Shown here: positions 17,509 to 27,168 of the stretch, one piece after another | Position numbering within the stretch: position 1 is the stretch's first letter | Layout of the letters: every line of letters starts with the position of its first letter | NCBI RefSeq assembly: GCF_014654725.1 | Contig: NZ_JACVZV010000007.1 | Span: 1 to 64,000 of the forward strand | DNA: 64,000 nt | Reading direction: 5' to 3' | Source: Vulcanococcus sp. Clear-D1 | Lineage (GTDB): Bacteria; Cyanobacteriota; Cyanobacteriia; PCC-6307; Cyanobiaceae | The notes under the pieces: model-generated | The model's database searches: none | Told to the model about the DNA's origin: nothing | The model's input: the letters and a program-made list of their open reading frames with translations, nothing else | Translations under genes and position numbers: made by a program

Positions 17509-19551
17509 GTGTTCAAGCGCTCGCTCTGGCTGTGGTGGCTTCTGCTCGTGGCCCTCTGGCTCCTGGCAACCGCTGCTGATCGCGCCTGGCTCCAGGCCGA
17601 TCAGCAGCTGCCGGCCTGGGATCAGGCCGACTACCTCAACAGCGCCATCGACCACGGCCGGGCCCTCGGGTTGCTGCGGGGTGGCGGCTGGCCGGGCTGG
17701 CAGGGGCTGCTGGATCTCTCTCCGAAAATCCCGCCGCTGGCGTCGCTGGTGAGCGGCACGGTGATGGCCGCGGCCGGCGAGAGCGTGGATGGCGCCAGCT
17801 GGGCCCTGAGCCTCTGGCACGGCTTGCTGCTGCTGGTGATCGCTCTTTGGGGGCGGCAGCTGCTCTCACCAGGCTTCGGGCTGCTGGCGGCCGCCCTCGT
17901 GGCGCTGGCGCCTGCCCTCTCCAGCCTGCGGGTGGACTTCACCCTCGACATGCCCCTCACCGCCAGCTGCAGCCTGGCCCTGTGGCTGCTCTGGCGCTGG
18001 CAGCGACCTGAGCACGGTGGGCGCTGGGGCCAGGCCCTGGCGGCCGCGGCGGCGATGGCCGCGGCCCTGCTGATCAAGCAGAGCGCCCTGTTGGTGCTGG
18101 CCCTGCCGGCCCTCTGGAGCTTCGGCCAGGCCCAGGGGCAACCCGGGCGCCGCTGGCAAGCCTGGGCGGCCCTGGCCGTGGTGCTGGCCCTACTGCTGCC
18201 GTGGCTGCAGCACAACTGGATCACCACCCTCGGCGGCACCGAGCGCGCTGTGGTCAGTTCCGGAGCGGCCGAAGGCGATCCCGGCAGCCTCGATCCACGC
18301 AGCCTGATCTGGTACCCCCGGCTTTGGAGCCAACAACTGGGCGCTGCCAGCCTCGGCGCCGGCCTGGCTGGGCTGGCTCTGCTCGGCTGGCAGCAGCGCG
18401 GCCACTGGCGGCAGCGCTGGCCCGATGGCTGGGCCTGGCTGCTGGGGGTAGCGATCAGCGGCTGGCTGTGCACCAGCCTGAGCCCCAACAAAGACGAGCG
18501 CTACATCGCTCCGGTGCTGCCGCTCTTGGCGCTGCTGCTGGCGCGAGGCTGGTGGGCCCTGGGGCAGTGGATCGCCCAGCGGCGCTCGGGCCGCTGGGCC
18601 GGCGGTGCCCTGGCCCTCGGCCTGCTCAGTGCCGGCGGGATCGAGGCCCAGGCCAGCTGGAGCCAGCTGAATCGCGAGCCGCCCTCGAGCGTGGTGGCGG
18701 CGATCCAGAGCCTGCGCGCCCGCGTGGGTGAGGCCCCCACCACCCTTTTGATCAGTGGCAGCAGCCCCGATCTCAATGAGCACAGCCTCACCCTGCTGGG
18801 CCGCCAGCAAGGCGGCCAGATCCTGGTGCGGCGCCTGGGGCGCAACCCCGGTGAACAAGACCTTGCCCTCGAGCAGGGGGAGTGGTGGCTGCTGGCCAGC
18901 GGCGATCAGGGCACCACACGCCCCTCCGCCCGCGCCCTGAGCCGTGCTGTGCGCCGGGATGGCCGCTACGAACGGGTGCAGATCTGGTCATGGACCAAAG
19001 GCCGCCAGCTGGAGCTGTGGCGCCGCAAGCCGGGTTTGGCAGCTCCGAGCTGCTTCCAGCAGCGCTTCATCACCCTGGCCCGAGGGCTGGAGCAAGGCCC
19101 CCGCGGCCTTCAGCCGGTGTTTGCGGCCATCGGCCCCTGGCACCTACTCGATCCCCGCTTCAGCTATCAATCAGATGTGAGCCAATGGGCTGAGGCCCAA
19201 TTGCGGCGCAACCCCAGCGATCGTGATGCGCTCTGGAGCCTGGCCCTGTTGGCGGTGCTGCAGAACAGGCCGCTCCAGGCCGACCACTGGTTTGCCCGCC
19301 TGGAGCAGCTCGAGGGCCCGGGCCACTGGCCCAGCGCCTATCGCAGCGTGGTGCAACTGGCCGGCTGGCGCAGCTGCGGCGCAGCGCGGGTGGCCGACAC
19401 CAAAACCCGCGATCCAGTCGCCGCTTCTGTGCTGCTCGGCCTGCGCGATCTCAGCCGCAGCCTTTGCTTCGATCCGCGCGGCCCCCTGGCGCTGAGCAGC
19501 AGCCTGCCAGCAGCGGTTCAAGCCGTGTCTGAGGAGCTGAAGCAGCCATGA
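17509..19551 (+). CDS. GT39/ArnT-like membrane glycosyltransferase
   Basis: A 680-residue polytopic membrane protein. An N-terminal helix is followed by WDQADYLNSAIDHGRAL, a periplasmic Asp-containing loop typical of the PMT/ArnT fold, then SPKIPPLASL and a DFTLDMPLTASCSLALWLLW segment with acidic loop residues. About ten further hydrophobic helices follow, ending near residue 400, with a soluble C-terminal domain of about 280 residues. Such enzymes transfer a sugar from a polyprenyl-phosphate donor to lipids or proteins on the outer face of the membrane. Start is GTG. The stop overlaps the next gene (ATGA), which is a broken DUF2079 gene. The acceptor is unknown. Confidence 0.85.
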   Translation: MFKRSLWLWWLLLVALWLLATAADRAWLQADQQLPAWDQADYLNSAIDHGRALGLLRGGGWPGWQGLLDLSPKIPPLASLVSGTVMAAAGESVDGASWALSLWHGLLLLVIALWGRQLLSPGFGLLAAALVALAPALSSLRVDFTLDMPLTASCSLALWLLWRWQRPEHGGRWGQALAAAAAMAAALLIKQSALLVLALPALWSFGQAQGQPGRRWQAWAALAVVLALLLPWLQHNWITTLGGTERAVVSSGAAEGDPGSLDPRSLIWYPRLWSQQLGAASLGAGLAGLALLGWQQRGHWRQRWPDGWAWLLGVAISGWLCTSLSPNKDERYIAPVLPLLALLLARGWWALGQWIAQRRSGRWAGGALALGLLSAGGIEAQASWSQLNREPPSSVVAAIQSLRARVGEAPTTLLISGSSPDLNEHSLTLLGRQQGGQILVRRLGRNPGEQDLALEQGEWWLLASGDQGTTRPSARALSRAVRRDGRYERVQIWSWTKGRQLELWRRKPGLAAPSCFQQRFITLARGLEQGPRGLQPVFAAIGPWHLLDPRFSYQSDVSQWAEAQLRRNPSDRDALWSLALLAVLQNRPLQADHWFARLEQLEGPGHWPSAYRSVVQLAGWRSCGAARVADTKTRDPVAASVLLGLRDLSRSLCFDPRGPLALSSSLPAAVQAVSEELKQP

Positions 19552-22725: not shown

Positions 22726-24135
22726 ATGCCCGACAGCCGAAGCCTGCCGCCCCGCAATCTCCTACTCACCAGTGGGGCGATTGCGTTGTTGTTGTGGATC
22801 TGCGCGGCGGCGCGCCATGCCCTCCTGCAGAGCAACGCCTACGACCTCGGCCTGTTCGATCAGTGGATCTGGCTGGTGAGCCGCGGCCTGCCGCCGATCT
22901 CTTCCATGGAGGGGGTTCACATCCTGGCGGACCACGGCGCCTGGGCCCTCTATGGCGCGGCCCTGCCCTACAGGCTGCTGAGCAGCGTGCAGTGGTTGTT
23001 GGCCAGCCAGGCCGCCGCGCTCAGCTTCACGGCCCTGCCGATCTGGTGGGTGGGCCGCCAGGCCGGCCTCAGCCCGAAGCTCTGCTGGCTGGCCTGCGGC
23101 CTGTGGTGGCTGCAGCCGGTGGTGTTCAACGCCAACCTCTTCGACTTTCACCCCGAGGTGTGGGTGATGCCGGCCCTGGCCGGTTGCTACTGGGCCAGCC
23201 GCGCCGAGCGACCCTGGCTCTGGTTTGGCCTGCTGCTGCTGCTGCTCGGCTGCCGCGATGGTCTGGTGCTGGTGGTGGCGGGCCTGGGCCTAGAGCAGGC
23301 GCTGCGGCGCCGCTGGATCTGGGCCGGCGCCGCGATCGGCCTGGCGCTGGGCTGGCTGGCGCTGCTCAACCGTTGGCTCTACCCGCTGCTCAAGGGGAGT
23401 GATGCCGGGCCCAAGGCGGCGGGCAAGCTCTTCTCCTATCTGGGCGACAGCCTCGATCAGGTGCTGCTCAACATGCTCACCCGGCCCGATCTGCTGCTCA
23501 AGCATGTGGACTGGGCCAGCGGCCTGCTGTATCTGCTGCTCATCAGCGTGGCGGTCGCACCGTTCTGGCGGAAGGTGTCGCTACCGGTGCTGGCGGGTGC
23601 CATCCCGCTCGTGCTGGTGAATGTGCTTTCCGAGGAGGCTCCTCAGCGCACCCTCGTGCACCACTACAGCCTGCCGGTAGCCGTGATCGCTGTGGTTGCC
23701 GCCATCGATGGTCTCGCCCTACAACCCCGCCAACCGATGCCCTGGCGGAGCTTCAGCTGGAGCGTGGTGTGCTGGGCGGCCTTAGCCAAACCGTGGTTCT
23801 TCACCGGCCCCTACCTGGAGCGTGTGGATCAGCGACCCGCCCTCCAGGAAGCGATCGCGGCCGTGCCGCCCGAGGCACGCCTGAGCACCACCAGCTATCT
23901 GGTGCCCCAGCTGAGCCAGCGCCAGCAGGTGAGCTTCCCCCGCACCCGCCGCGACCGCACCCGGCTCGAGCAGCTCGATGCCCTGCTGCTCAACCCGAAG
24001 GATCCCGGCTGGGGCTCCTCGCAGGCACGCCAGCAAGAGCTCCTGCGTGAAGCCCGCGCCGCCGGCTGGAGCTGCCGCCGCTGGGACAACGGCCTGGAGC
24101 TCTGCCAAAACGATGCCCCCGGAGGGCACAGCTGA
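22726..24135 (+). CDS. DUF2079 family membrane protein
   Basis: A 469-residue polytopic membrane protein. The N-terminal helix is followed by NAYDLGLFDQWIWLVSRGLP and HILADHGAWALYGAALPYRL, the conserved periplasmic loop of DUF2079. About nine more helices follow, and a soluble C-terminal part carries VPPEARLSTTSYLVPQLSQR. The fold is related to GT-C glycosyltransferases, but activity is not established. It is the intact relative of the broken copy at 19548-20345. It starts 51 bases from the divergent GtrA-YdjC gene, so the two may share a regulatory region. Confidence 0.88.
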   Translation: MPDSRSLPPRNLLLTSGAIALLLWICAAARHALLQSNAYDLGLFDQWIWLVSRGLPPISSMEGVHILADHGAWALYGAALPYRLLSSVQWLLASQAAALSFTALPIWWVGRQAGLSPKLCWLACGLWWLQPVVFNANLFDFHPEVWVMPALAGCYWASRAERPWLWFGLLLLLLGCRDGLVLVVAGLGLEQALRRRWIWAGAAIGLALGWLALLNRWLYPLLKGSDAGPKAAGKLFSYLGDSLDQVLLNMLTRPDLLLKHVDWASGLLYLLLISVAVAPFWRKVSLPVLAGAIPLVLVNVLSEEAPQRTLVHHYSLPVAVIAVVAAIDGLALQPRQPMPWRSFSWSVVCWAALAKPWFFTGPYLERVDQRPALQEAIAAVPPEARLSTTSYLVPQLSQRQQVSFPRTRRDRTRLEQLDALLLNPKDPGWGSSQARQQELLREARAAGWSCRRWDNGLELCQNDAPGGHS

Positions 24136-24458
24136 CGCTGGCTCTCCGGGGGCTCTCGCCGGGTCCGCTCTGGCGCGGAACCGAATGATCTAGGAATCAG
24201 GCGCCGTAATCAGCCGGCGTTCTCCGCGATCAGCAGACCCTGCATGGAACAACTGTGACTCACGGGCACCTCCTCCTTGGGGGATTGGGATCAGCCGGCG
24301 ATGCATTCGGCACCAGGAGGGCGCAAGCGCCGCACTGAGGCCACATCACTGCTGACGGAACCCGCAAACTTTAACGAGATTGATGCGGTGCGCGAGCTTG
24401 CCAGGCTGGGTGAGCCACGACACGCCTCACGCCCAGGCCTCCTCCCCAGGCTGAACCC
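24136..24458. other. Intergenic region with a possible very short ORF
   Basis: No gene of normal size is supported here. On the minus strand AGGAGG lies 5 bases before a GTG at 24263. That start gives a 17-residue peptide (MSHSCSMQGLLIAENAG) ending at 24210. The strength of the ribosome-binding site is unusual for this window, but I cannot say whether the peptide is made. The rest probably holds the promoter of the ATPase-like gene. Confidence 0.35.
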
Positions 24459-26675
24459 ATGGATGTGCTGCAAGCCGGCGATCACATCGTTCTGGCACCC
24501 AGCGGCGAACCCTGGAGGGTGCGGCAGGTGCTGCCACGGCGACTGCGGCTCAGCAGTGATGCACTCCTGCACAACGGATCGCTGCAGCAGCGCCTGATCA
24601 ACGCCAGCCTGCACCTGAGCTGGGTACAAGCGATCCGGGTCAACATCCTGGCGGGCAGCCTGGTGATCGTGCACAGCTGCCAACGCAGCCTGCGGCGCCG
24701 TCAGCTTCAGGCCCTGCTGCACCTGGCCCTGCGGCACGAGCACGACCAGGCTCTGGCGTTCATGCCACGGGCCTCCAGTACAGCCCTCTGGCACCTCACA
24801 GGCACCACCGGGCTTTTGGCAGGGGTCGGCGTGCTCGGCCTACCCGCCTGGCCAGGACTGTTGCTGTTCATTGGGCTCTGTTACCTGCCTCTGGCTGCGC
24901 GCTGCCTACGCAGCCTGGGGCAACGGCAACTGGCTGGCAGCTGGCTTGATCTGTTCTGGTTCAGCAGCCTGTTGCTGCAGGCCAGCCCCGTGGCGGTGTT
25001 ACTGGAATGGACCCTGGAAACCGCCGGCAAGGTGTTCAAGGCCTGGACACCTTCGCCTGGCTTCGCGGAGGCCTTTCAGAAGCAACTGCAGGGCCGGCTG
25101 ACAGATCTCAGCTTTGCCGTGCAGCAGATCGATGGAAGCTGGCAGCACCAACCCTTCGAGGGTCTCGCAGCCGGAGATCGACTGCTGCTCGGCCCCGGTG
25201 ATCCATTGCCGGCCCATGGCCTGGTCGTGGATGGCCAAGCGCTGGTGAGCACGCGCTGGCGCGATGGTGACCCGCGTTTGCTCAGCGCCCGTGCCTTCCA
25301 GCAACTGCCGTTTGGAACCATCGTGATCGAGGGCCAGCTGCAGGTTCGGCTGGTGTGCGCCTCCATGCAGGATCCTGAACTCAGGCTCCTGCAACGGCTG
25401 CTCCACAAAGCACAACTGGAGGCCGCGCGCACATCCAAGCCATCCCTGCTTCGCGATGCCGAACGCTGGCATCAGGCCTCGGTGCCCTACCTGTTGATCG
25501 CCGGAGCTGCCCTGCTGGTGGTGGGCCCCCATGGCAGCGCCGGCGCCCTGATGCAGTTCGATCCAGCCAGCGATTGGCAGCTTTCTGCCTCTCTCACCTA
25601 CGGGGATGCCCAGCGCGATCTGCTCTGGCAAGGCCTGGTGTTACGACGAGCTGAGGCGATCGACGCCCTGGCCCACTGCCAGCAGCTGCTGGTGAGTGAG
25701 TCCGTTGTGCTCAGCACCAGCCAGTGGCACATCGGCGGCATCTACCCCCTGCCATTTCAGATCAGCCGCGACGAACTCATCCAGGCCGTGGCCGGCTTCC
25801 GCTGCCATCAGAAACCGCATGGCCTCCACCCGCTCCGTGGCCTCCTTGAGGAGGAAGACCTCCTGCCGGCAGTGGTGGAGGGTCTCCGACCACTGGGCGT
25901 CCATGGGGTTGAGGGCCGCATCAAGGGCAACACCTATCAGTTCGGTGGCCAATCGATGCTCCAGCATCTGAGGCTGCAGGCGCCGGCCGAGCTGATTACC
26001 TCAGCTTCGGAGACTCTTCTGTATCTCGTGCACCAGGGGCAGGTGCTCGGAGCGGTGGGCTTTGAAATGGAGCTCTCACGCCACCTGGTCAAGGGCTTGC
26101 GCCAGCTGCAACGAGCCGGCTGGCAGCTTCATCTGCTGGTGGAAAGCCACAGTGAATTGCTCGAAGACCTCGCTGGCCGGCTACATCGACAGGCCACAGC
26201 TACTTACACGGCCGCCAATCCCCATGAGCGCAATCGCGTCGTCAGCGAGCTGCGCCAGAAGCAGCCGCTGGCCATGCTCGGCAACGGGGCCCTGGATGCC
26301 CTTTGCCTAGCCCAGGTCGATCTCTCGATCGAGCTGCTCAATGAGCAGCACGGACTCAGCGGCGAAAACGCTGATCTCATGCTTCGGCCGGAAGCGCTGA
26401 CAACCCTGGCGGGATCGCAGATGATCGCGCTGGAGGCCTCCCGGCGCCACCGCCGCAACCTCGCCCTGGTGCTTGTGCCCCACCTCGCGGTGGTGCTGCT
26501 CAACCTTGTGCTGCCGCTCAACCCTGTGCTGGCAGTGTTGAGCGTGGACCTCCCGGTGCTGCTCGCGGAGCTGGGCCGCGTTAGCGGTGGACAGGAAGCG
26601 CTACGGAAACCCAACAAAAAAGCCCCGCCAAGGCGGGGCAGTTCAAAAAGGCGGGAAGTCTCGAGGAGCGGCTGA
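24459..26675 (+). CDS. Catalytically degenerate P1B-type ATPase homologue
   Basis: A 738-residue protein with the layout of a heavy-metal P-type ATPase: an N-terminal HMA-like domain (about 20-85), a membrane pair, an actuator-like domain (GLAAGDRLLLGPGDPLPAHG), more membrane segments, P/N-like domains and two final helices. The catalytic signatures are gone. Where DKTGTLT is expected the chain reads SESVVLS (413-419), with no phosphorylatable Asp. The CPC/SPC ion motif and TGES are absent. The hinge GDGxND has become GNGALDAL (608-615). The open frame and coding style are intact, so this looks like a maintained pseudoenzyme, perhaps a regulator or scaffold. The last 25 codons overlap the psaL terminator. 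Confidence 0.85.
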   Translation: MDVLQAGDHIVLAPSGEPWRVRQVLPRRLRLSSDALLHNGSLQQRLINASLHLSWVQAIRVNILAGSLVIVHSCQRSLRRRQLQALLHLALRHEHDQALAFMPRASSTALWHLTGTTGLLAGVGVLGLPAWPGLLLFIGLCYLPLAARCLRSLGQRQLAGSWLDLFWFSSLLLQASPVAVLLEWTLETAGKVFKAWTPSPGFAEAFQKQLQGRLTDLSFAVQQIDGSWQHQPFEGLAAGDRLLLGPGDPLPAHGLVVDGQALVSTRWRDGDPRLLSARAFQQLPFGTIVIEGQLQVRLVCASMQDPELRLLQRLLHKAQLEAARTSKPSLLRDAERWHQASVPYLLIAGAALLVVGPHGSAGALMQFDPASDWQLSASLTYGDAQRDLLWQGLVLRRAEAIDALAHCQQLLVSESVVLSTSQWHIGGIYPLPFQISRDELIQAVAGFRCHQKPHGLHPLRGLLEEEDLLPAVVEGLRPLGVHGVEGRIKGNTYQFGGQSMLQHLRLQAPAELITSASETLLYLVHQGQVLGAVGFEMELSRHLVKGLRQLQRAGWQLHLLVESHSELLEDLAGRLHRQATATYTAANPHERNRVVSELRQKQPLAMLGNGALDALCLAQVDLSIELLNEQHGLSGENADLMLRPEALTTLAGSQMIALEASRRHRRNLALVLVPHLAVVLLNLVLPLNPVLAVLSVDLPVLLAELGRVSGGQEALRKPNKKAPPRRGSSKRREVSRSG
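26616..26639 (-). terminator. Terminator of psaI-psaL, inside the ATPase-like gene's end
   Basis: Perfect GCCCCGCC-AA-GGCGGGGC stem preceded on the plus strand by six A residues. It lies 38 bases beyond the psaL stop. It is also translated as part of the basic tail of the convergent ATPase-like gene. Confidence 0.88.
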
Positions 26676-26676
26676 C

Positions 26677-27168
26677 TCAGCCCACGCTCCACACGCCACC
26701 GGCGATCTTCACCAGGGGAGACACGATGGTGGTGCCTGCGAGGAACCAGGCGAAGGCAGCGCCGCCGCAACCGCCGAGCCAGAAGCCGCTGGCGAATTCA
26801 GCCCAGCCGGCCTTGGTGAACAGGTCGGCGGGAGGGTTGTCGATGGTGGCGTCAGCGGGCTGCACGTTGGGGCCGCGGCCAGCGGTGCCGTAGAGCGACA
26901 GGCAGACGGTGAGGATCGACACCAGACCCACTGCCGCCAGCAGACCAGCGGTGCTGGCGTATTCGGTGGCGCGCAGCGGGCCGGTGATGGCGAAGGGTCC
27001 GTAGAGGAAGAAGCCATGGGCCATACCCACTTCCAAACCGCGGCGGTTCGGAGAGAGGGAAGGGCGATAGGCCGGCAGCGCGTTCAGGAAGGCACGGCTG
27101 AAGTAGCTGCTGTTGACGGGAGTGGCCAGATTGCCGACGCAGGGGTCGGCGACGGGGGTCACGGTCAT
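26677..27168 (-). CDS. psaL: Photosystem I reaction centre subunit XI
   Basis: A 163-residue thylakoid membrane subunit of photosystem I that sits at the trimer interface and binds chlorophyll and carotenoid. Family features seen are [13 protein letters not shown] near the N terminus, [22 protein letters not shown], and three hydrophobic helices. The lumenal stretch between helices 2 and 3 ([20 protein letters not shown]) is typical. It lies 42 bases downstream of psaI and is surely co-transcribed with it. A hairpin terminator follows. Confidence 0.98.

Follow-up and report, generated by a model that had tools for sequence, protein, structure and literature searches.

A P1B-type ATPase relative without its catalytic residues, a possible partner of an HMA_2-type pump in picocyanobacteria

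The cycle of P-type ATPases depends on a phosphorylated Asp, the TGE and TGD motifs, a Lys of the P domain and the GDGxND motif, and these enzymes are generally seen as self-sufficient catalysts with at most small accessory subunits. In the stretch of 64,000 nt from Vulcanococcus sp. Clear-D1 analyzed here (contig NZ_JACVZV010000007.1, positions 1–64,000; hereafter the window), a gene has the layout of a heavy-metal P1B pump with these residues replaced. What does such a protein do, if it does not pump? The gene and its neighbors are as follows (positions in the window):

24459..26675, plus strand: dead P1B-type ATPase relative, 738 aa, without stop or frameshift
22726..24135, plus strand: neighboring gene for a DUF2079 membrane protein, upstream of the dead gene
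26677..27168, minus strand: neighboring gene psaL (PF02605, 3.1e-60), tail to tail with the dead gene, with 1 base between them

Domains and catalytic residues of the window protein

The first-pass annotation had read the gene as an uninterrupted frame of 738 codons for a P1B ATPase relative, and both points were confirmed. The window protein matched the Pfam E1-E2_ATPase model (PF00122) at 4.3e-9, above the cut-off; with scores below their cut-offs, it also matched HMA_2 (PF19991; 3.8e-4, 20.9 bits vs. a gathering score of 30) and, over residues 221–695, NCBIfam TIGR01525 (3.3e-27, 95.6 bits vs. 346.25). By sequence, the nearest solved structures were CopA pumps (3.2e-15), and the Pfam, NCBIfam and CopA matches led us to reject a chance resemblance; moreover, the protein could be aligned with its live relatives, revealing the following parts:

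24507..24734, plus strand: HMA_2-like domain (residues 17–92), predicted beta-alpha-beta fold, without CxxC
24777..25043, plus strand: first group of membrane helices (residues 107–195), from the model, low confidence
25110..25352, plus strand: actuator-like domain (residues 218–298), from Pfam, the model and a structure match
25446..25628, plus strand: core membrane hairpin (residues 330–390), from the model, overlapping the stretch of lowest pN/pS (336–395)
25722..26063, plus strand: N-like domain (residues 422–535), from the model and a structure match
26064..26438, plus strand: second part of the P-like domain (residues 536–660), from the model and the alignment, containing Arg591
26439..26606, plus strand: last pair of membrane helices (residues 661–716), from the model, low confidence

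An AlphaFold2 model from a 13-row alignment (mean pLDDT 64.8, pTM 0.44) was moderately confident in the HMA-like, actuator, P and N parts and not in the membrane domain, where about eight helices were predicted with pLDDT mostly below 50. The best Foldseek matches of this model were zinc and copper P1B pumps; a second aligner superposed it on CopA with Z 19.6 (rmsd 9.5, 402 residues) and on the P and N domains of CopA with Z 18.6 (rmsd 4.3, 264 residues). As modeled, the actuator and P/N domains of the P-type ATPase fold are thus present in the window protein. It therefore shares architecture and fold with the heavy-metal P1B ATPases (TIGR01525; CopA, ZntA), with recognizable actuator, P and N domains, but differs from CopA and ZntA in lacking the phosphorylated Asp, TGE, GDGxND and CPx, and in scoring under the NCBIfam cut-off.

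The alignment with live relatives placed the replacements as follows:

25263..25271, plus strand: DGD in place of TGE (residues 269–271)
25557..25577, plus strand: FDPASDW in place of the ion-site motif (residues 367–373)
25692..25715, plus strand: VSESVVLS in place of FDKTGTLT (residues 412–419)
26229-26231, plus strand: Arg591 in place of the catalytic Lys of the P domain
26280..26297, plus strand: GNGALD in place of GDGxND (residues 608–613)

Ser413 thus occupies the position of the phosphorylated Asp; LTGES became RDGDP, with its Gly retained in columns 269–271 (DGD), and TGD became VES. The losses are shared by the dead proteins found in other genomes (see below): in motif counts over 43 dead and 33 live rows (leaving aside L113, L117, L118, L119, the CPC pumps L110 and L111 and five dropped hits), catalytic residues were lost in 43/43 dead and 0/33 live proteins. 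The position of the phosphorylated Asp is Ser in 34 dead proteins and Thr in nine, and the P-domain Lys is Arg in 39 and Gln in four, whereas all 43 retain two residues, the TGE Gly and the final Asp of GDGxND. Since the known P-type cycle requires the lost residues, the window protein cannot pump by that cycle. The initial claim that every catalytic motif had been lost therefore holds for DKTGT, TGES, TGD, GDG and CPx, and fails for these two retained residues. The GNG triplet is private to the window genome, with GCSAID in the four orthologs described below, and we consequently rejected its reading as a half-kept GDG. The HMA-like part was searched for CxxC and contains none, while Arg28, Arg30 and Asn62 occur in 43/43 dead proteins and Arg60 in 98% of them.

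The nearest live relatives, both by sequence and in the trees, are cyanobacterial HMA_2-type pumps (L031:5694-8168, L032 and L034, among others), which have the same HMA_2-like N-terminus. They also lack CPx, the ion-site motif of classical P1B pumps; unlike the dead proteins, they retain DKTGT, TGE and GDG/GEGxND, and have a membrane motif LDFGTG or FDLGTG.

Conservation and origins of the dead proteins

Four orthologs, with 69–71% identity to the window protein and all equally dead, are flanked by the DUF2079 gene and psaL in 4/4 loci; a search for same-locus relatives with an intact DKTGT yielded none among the five copies, including that of the window. NG86 dN/dS values were 0.208–0.240 between the window gene and each ortholog and 0.159–0.206 among the four, far from 1, which agrees with the earlier proposal that selection keeps the gene. 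In the same genomes, dN/dS was 0.093–0.194 for the live pump and 0.155–0.364 for a sister group of dead proteins (clade B, below). Because the four orthologs share the losses at the same locus with dN/dS of 0.159–0.240, chance or decay can be excluded; likewise, the intact frame and the pairwise dN/dS of 0.16–0.24 rule out a pseudogene. Frames are intact in all 43 dead proteins compared. The dead gene is nevertheless the fastest-changing of its locus, with identities of 69–70% vs. 89–92% for the DUF2079 gene and 97.5% for psaL.

Three other observations concern this region. The 323-bp gap that separates the dead gene from the DUF2079 gene contains an element (24136–24310) of about 165–175 bp that is 95–97% identical across the four orthologous loci, far more conserved than the dead gene, and is present in 26 of 60 relatives, including ones without the dead gene there. 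It had no Rfam family match, a folding z-score of 0.08 and a predicted three-way junction with little covariation (pairs changed on both sides were 2/32), so a structured RNA is unsupported; we consider it a candidate small RNA or regulatory element. At the other end, the final codons of the window copy (26616–26675) cross a terminator-like hairpin of psaL (26622–26639, minus strand), and the orthologs stop earlier. Finally, the tRNA-Pro (cgg) called by ARAGORN at 18553–18644 lies within a long open frame of membrane-protein character and is probably spurious.

The window genome contains a second dead pump, on contig L031, where it (683 aa; VSHSCAER, GDVIHD) comes third in a row, after an intact pump (824 aa; FDKTGTLT, LTGES, GDGIND) and a small membrane protein of HMA-like type. 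At 1e-40, a profile of 12 dead proteins had matches in 29 of the 400 family genomes searched. Among 388 genomes sampled from the class, 16 matched it at 1e-45, nine of them in the picocyanobacterial family; in the seven from other families, the matching proteins all have DKTGT. Copies per genome are lower bounds, because we scored the two best candidates per genome in these searches and in the live-pump search of the same family, and three in a search of 291 genomes, both described below.

In an 82-row tree, with 43 dead and 39 live proteins, the dead ones fell on one side of a single branch with 100% SH-aLRT, and a smaller, careful tree of 35 rows recovered the same clade (100/100, and in 100% of 200 bootstrap trees). 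The tree program warned of long branches and uneven composition; a single origin of the 43 whole dead proteins as one clade, as judged from these sequences, is thus well supported and not proven. They split into clade A, with 13 proteins including that of the window, and clade B, with 30. Long branches blur the exact attachment of the dead clade, but in three trees it was never among the Cyanobiaceae live pumps, and its derivation from the partner pump within this family was rejected. Left out before the 82-row tree were a fragment at a contig end (L104_3_983), two weak hits (L036_14441 and L048_9240) and other P-type ATPases (L108_13993 and L112), while L113, L117, L118 and L119, four live proteins from elsewhere outside these families, were added; the later trees of 35 and 44 rows are chosen subsets.

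Live HMA_2-type pumps of genus g28 (L042, L113, L114, L115 and L117) sit near the attachment of the dead clade. Some of them have slightly altered motifs, LSGEV in L042 and GEGIND in L042, L114 and L115, which may represent the onset of decay. In two further genomes, G057 (L046/L183) and G647 (L177), the HMA_2-type pump is divided between two frames, which may reflect a broken gene, a sequencing error or a split protein.

Losses of the phosphorylated Asp also occur outside this clade. A live HMA_2-type pump of another family, used as query against 291 genomes of the class, had matches at 1e-80 in 53; of these, 30 contained two or three matches and ten had two within about 20 kb. Examination of 18 stretches revealed four proteins without DKTGT: L168_6745 (FARTGTLT, TGG, GEGMDD) and L169_2911 (FAKTGTLT, NGD, GEGIDD), with an intact pump 1.2 and 2.3 kb away, respectively, and L172_4102 (FDSSS) and L178_5381 (FDQTG), both lacking GDGxND, whose closest DKTGT-bearing pump copies are at about 5.5 and 12 kb. 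A fifth protein, L167_6854, is partly degenerate (GDSISD) and keeps FDKTGTLT, for which it was counted as live in the 44-row tree; the remaining pump copies in the 18 stretches retain DKTGT. This tree needs three live/dead changes, a number forced by its starred branches. The phosphorylated Asp would thus have been lost at least two further times outside the clade of the window protein, if the ancestor was live and with long branches as a caution.

Association with a live pump and other cation transporters

Co-occurrence with an active pump, which the first-pass annotation had suggested looking for, was strict. A profile of ten live partner pumps had matches in 30 of the 400 family genomes at 1e-180 (the dead and live searches were taken to cover the same genomes from their identical handles and counts), and the pump was present in 29/29 dead-bearing genomes, 28 with whole dead proteins and one (G377) with an N-terminal fragment short of the catalytic motif. 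The sole genome with only the live pump (G392) is 73% complete; 268 bases separate the end of its minus-strand pump gene from the contig end, on the side where a dead gene would be expected, and a direct search for a dead protein elsewhere in this genome found none. Fisher's test for the co-occurrence gave 2.6e-43, a value that ignores kinship, and a gene cluster inherited as a whole may account for part of the co-occurrence. Linkage is not a sufficient explanation, since the copies at the psaL locus (five genomes) and those in operons with a CAX gene (four genomes), at loci apart from the pump, are confined to pump-bearing genomes. These unlinked copies, including the window gene, occur only in the seven pump-bearing genomes of the 25 in the genus, the other 18 lacking both the dead protein and the live pump; the corresponding chances, 0.0004 for the psaL-locus and 0.0028 for the CAX-operon copies, assume independent genomes, which they are not.

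In the 22 loci with both genes whole, the dead gene belongs to clade B and always lies 345–625 bp downstream of the pump gene, in the same orientation, with a small HMA-like gene between them in 20 of the 22 by clustering; gene starts were taken as the first ATG, GTG or TTG of the frame, so intergenic gaps are approximate. In two other loci (L102 and L103) the dead gene adjoining the live pump is from clade A, and four stretches (L089–L092) combine dead genes of both clades with the live pump.

Sister dead genes also neighbor other cation transporters. A CAX-type gene directly precedes clade B genes in four loci (L043, L044, L105 and L037, the last with a tandem pair, making five proteins in all), with spacings from a 1-base overlap to a 24-base gap. 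One of these transporters is a CAX by library match (PF01699, 6.8e-26; TIGR00378, 1.3e-52, below cut-off) and the remaining CAX-type genes were assigned by clustering with it. A GDT1-type gene adjoins a clade B dead gene in six loci (L096–L101; PF01169, 1.7e-33 for L096), and L093 and L094 each have a clade A gene in divergent orientation to a GDT1 gene, with a cation efflux gene close by (for L094, PF01169, 1e-40, and PF01545, 2e-40, respectively). The pump cluster also includes DUF1345, carbonic anhydrase (PF00484), DUF454-like and HMA-like glycine-rich proteins. The cation-transporter and carbonic anhydrase neighbors suggest, from gene context, that the cation involved is divalent, perhaps with a carbonate link.

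The glycine-rich proteins (L036:14441-15349 and relatives in pump clusters) have an HMA-like N-terminus and glycine-rich repeats, with 21 GxxxG in 302 aa. They are reminiscent of the calcyanins and CoBaHMA-domain proteins, with which the pump cluster would share this N-terminus and repeats, carbonic anhydrase and cation transporters; however, L036:14441-15349 matched no Pfam or NCBIfam family and no library model of calcyanin.

A dead pump as partner of a live one

Strict co-occurrence with one live pump and the operon pairing of the sister proteins lead us to favor the reading of the window gene as a pseudo-pump that serves divalent-cation transport as a regulatory subunit or non-catalytic partner, mainly that of the intact HMA_2-type P-type ATPase; to this reading we assign a probability of about 0.5. 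A regulator of a true pump was among the roles first proposed from the sequence, along with a metal sensor and a chaperone; the regulator is now the preferred idea, on the evidence of genomic linkage. The dead protein, without an aspartyl-phosphate, would be kept as a non-catalytic partner and would assemble with the live pump, perhaps via the P and N domains, which, retained without their chemistry, would offer a pairing surface. Its altered membrane site and HMA_2-like domain could sense the ion or nucleotide state, or pass the ion, and the protein would so gate or stabilize the pump.

P-type ATPases do pair through their nucleotide-binding and phosphorylation domains in the MgtA homodimer, as reported (PMC10925321). 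MgtA consists of two catalytic copies and is a Mg2+ transporter of another P-type class, whereas here one copy is dead and the pairing is what we infer. Several observations count against the partner reading: the window gene itself has no adjoining cation transporter and no live pump nearby; in two of the six CAX-type loci (L084 and L088) about 6 kb lie between the dead gene and the CAX-type gene; mean identity is 38% among dead proteins vs. 67% for the live pump; and many sampled genomes with live HMA_2-type pumps elsewhere in cyanobacteria lack a dead partner.

It is possible, if doubtful, that the protein is instead a stand-alone sensor or transducer that binds a cation or nucleotide and regulates the live pump, CAX and GDT1 without being a pump subunit. 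The location of the window gene apart from the pump, the three kinds of cation transporter that adjoin its sisters and the invariant Arg28, Arg30 and Asn62 would fit such a role, but CxxC metal ligands are absent, the co-occurrence is specific to the pump, and there is no evident reason for a sensor to retain the whole actuator, P and N architecture. We give a smaller chance to a passive conduit or ATP-independent carrier, in which the remodeled hairpin (FDPxxDW, Asp697) would move the ion alone. The core membrane hairpin is indeed the most constrained part of the protein, with pN/pS of 0.127 in residues 336–395 vs. 0.21–0.41 elsewhere, and Pro369 of the new motif is found in 43/43 dead and 0/33 live proteins; nevertheless, the soluble domains, needless for a bare channel, are constrained too (0.24–0.34), and Asp697 in the membrane part is replaced in 11 of the 30 clade B proteins (10 Asn, 1 Arg). 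An altered live enzyme, whose Ser or Thr accepts the phosphate or which has another HAD activity, is unlikely, and we see only a slight chance for it: the invariant Ser/Thr and last Asp of GDGxND would agree with it, but the actuator Glu, the Lys, TGD and GDG are lost too, and the Pfam HAD model misses the dead proteins scanned while matching the live pump at 8.6e-33. A functionless, decaying duplicate, as the loss of all catalytic motifs, a rate of change above that of its neighbors and the private 3′ extension over the psaL hairpin might suggest, is just as unlikely in view of the 43 intact frames, the dN/dS of 0.16–0.24 and the conserved residues specific to dead proteins.

Returning to the non-catalytic partner, the comparative data suggest that such a role can fall to a dead copy of the pump itself. 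A broader reading is more tentative, and we place it somewhat short of even odds: P-type ATPases would have hetero-oligomers, the HMA_2 pump being one catalytic and one dead protein; in cyanobacteria, dead subunits would have originated three or more times, one lineage having diversified into paralogs that also serve the CAX antiporter, and the window gene would be such a subunit at its own locus.

Pseudokinases and ABC transporters with a degenerate site are examples of a dead paralog kept beside a live one. The ClpR subunits are another (PMC6508832). None of these are P-type ATPases, and the partnership shown there would, for the dead pump, be deduced from its genomic company. Among the matches listed in our search of open-licence literature, no catalytically dead P-type ATPase family was found; in the accessible part of a review (PMC10654040), "inactive" and "heterodimer" were absent and "pseudo" appeared in a species name only. 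A conserved, recurrent dead family tied to one live pump would extend the pseudoenzyme principle to P-type ATPases, and whether such pumps work as asymmetric dimers would become testable. It also draws attention, in picocyanobacteria, to an uncharacterized pump without CPx, clustered with carbonic anhydrase and other HMA-like proteins.
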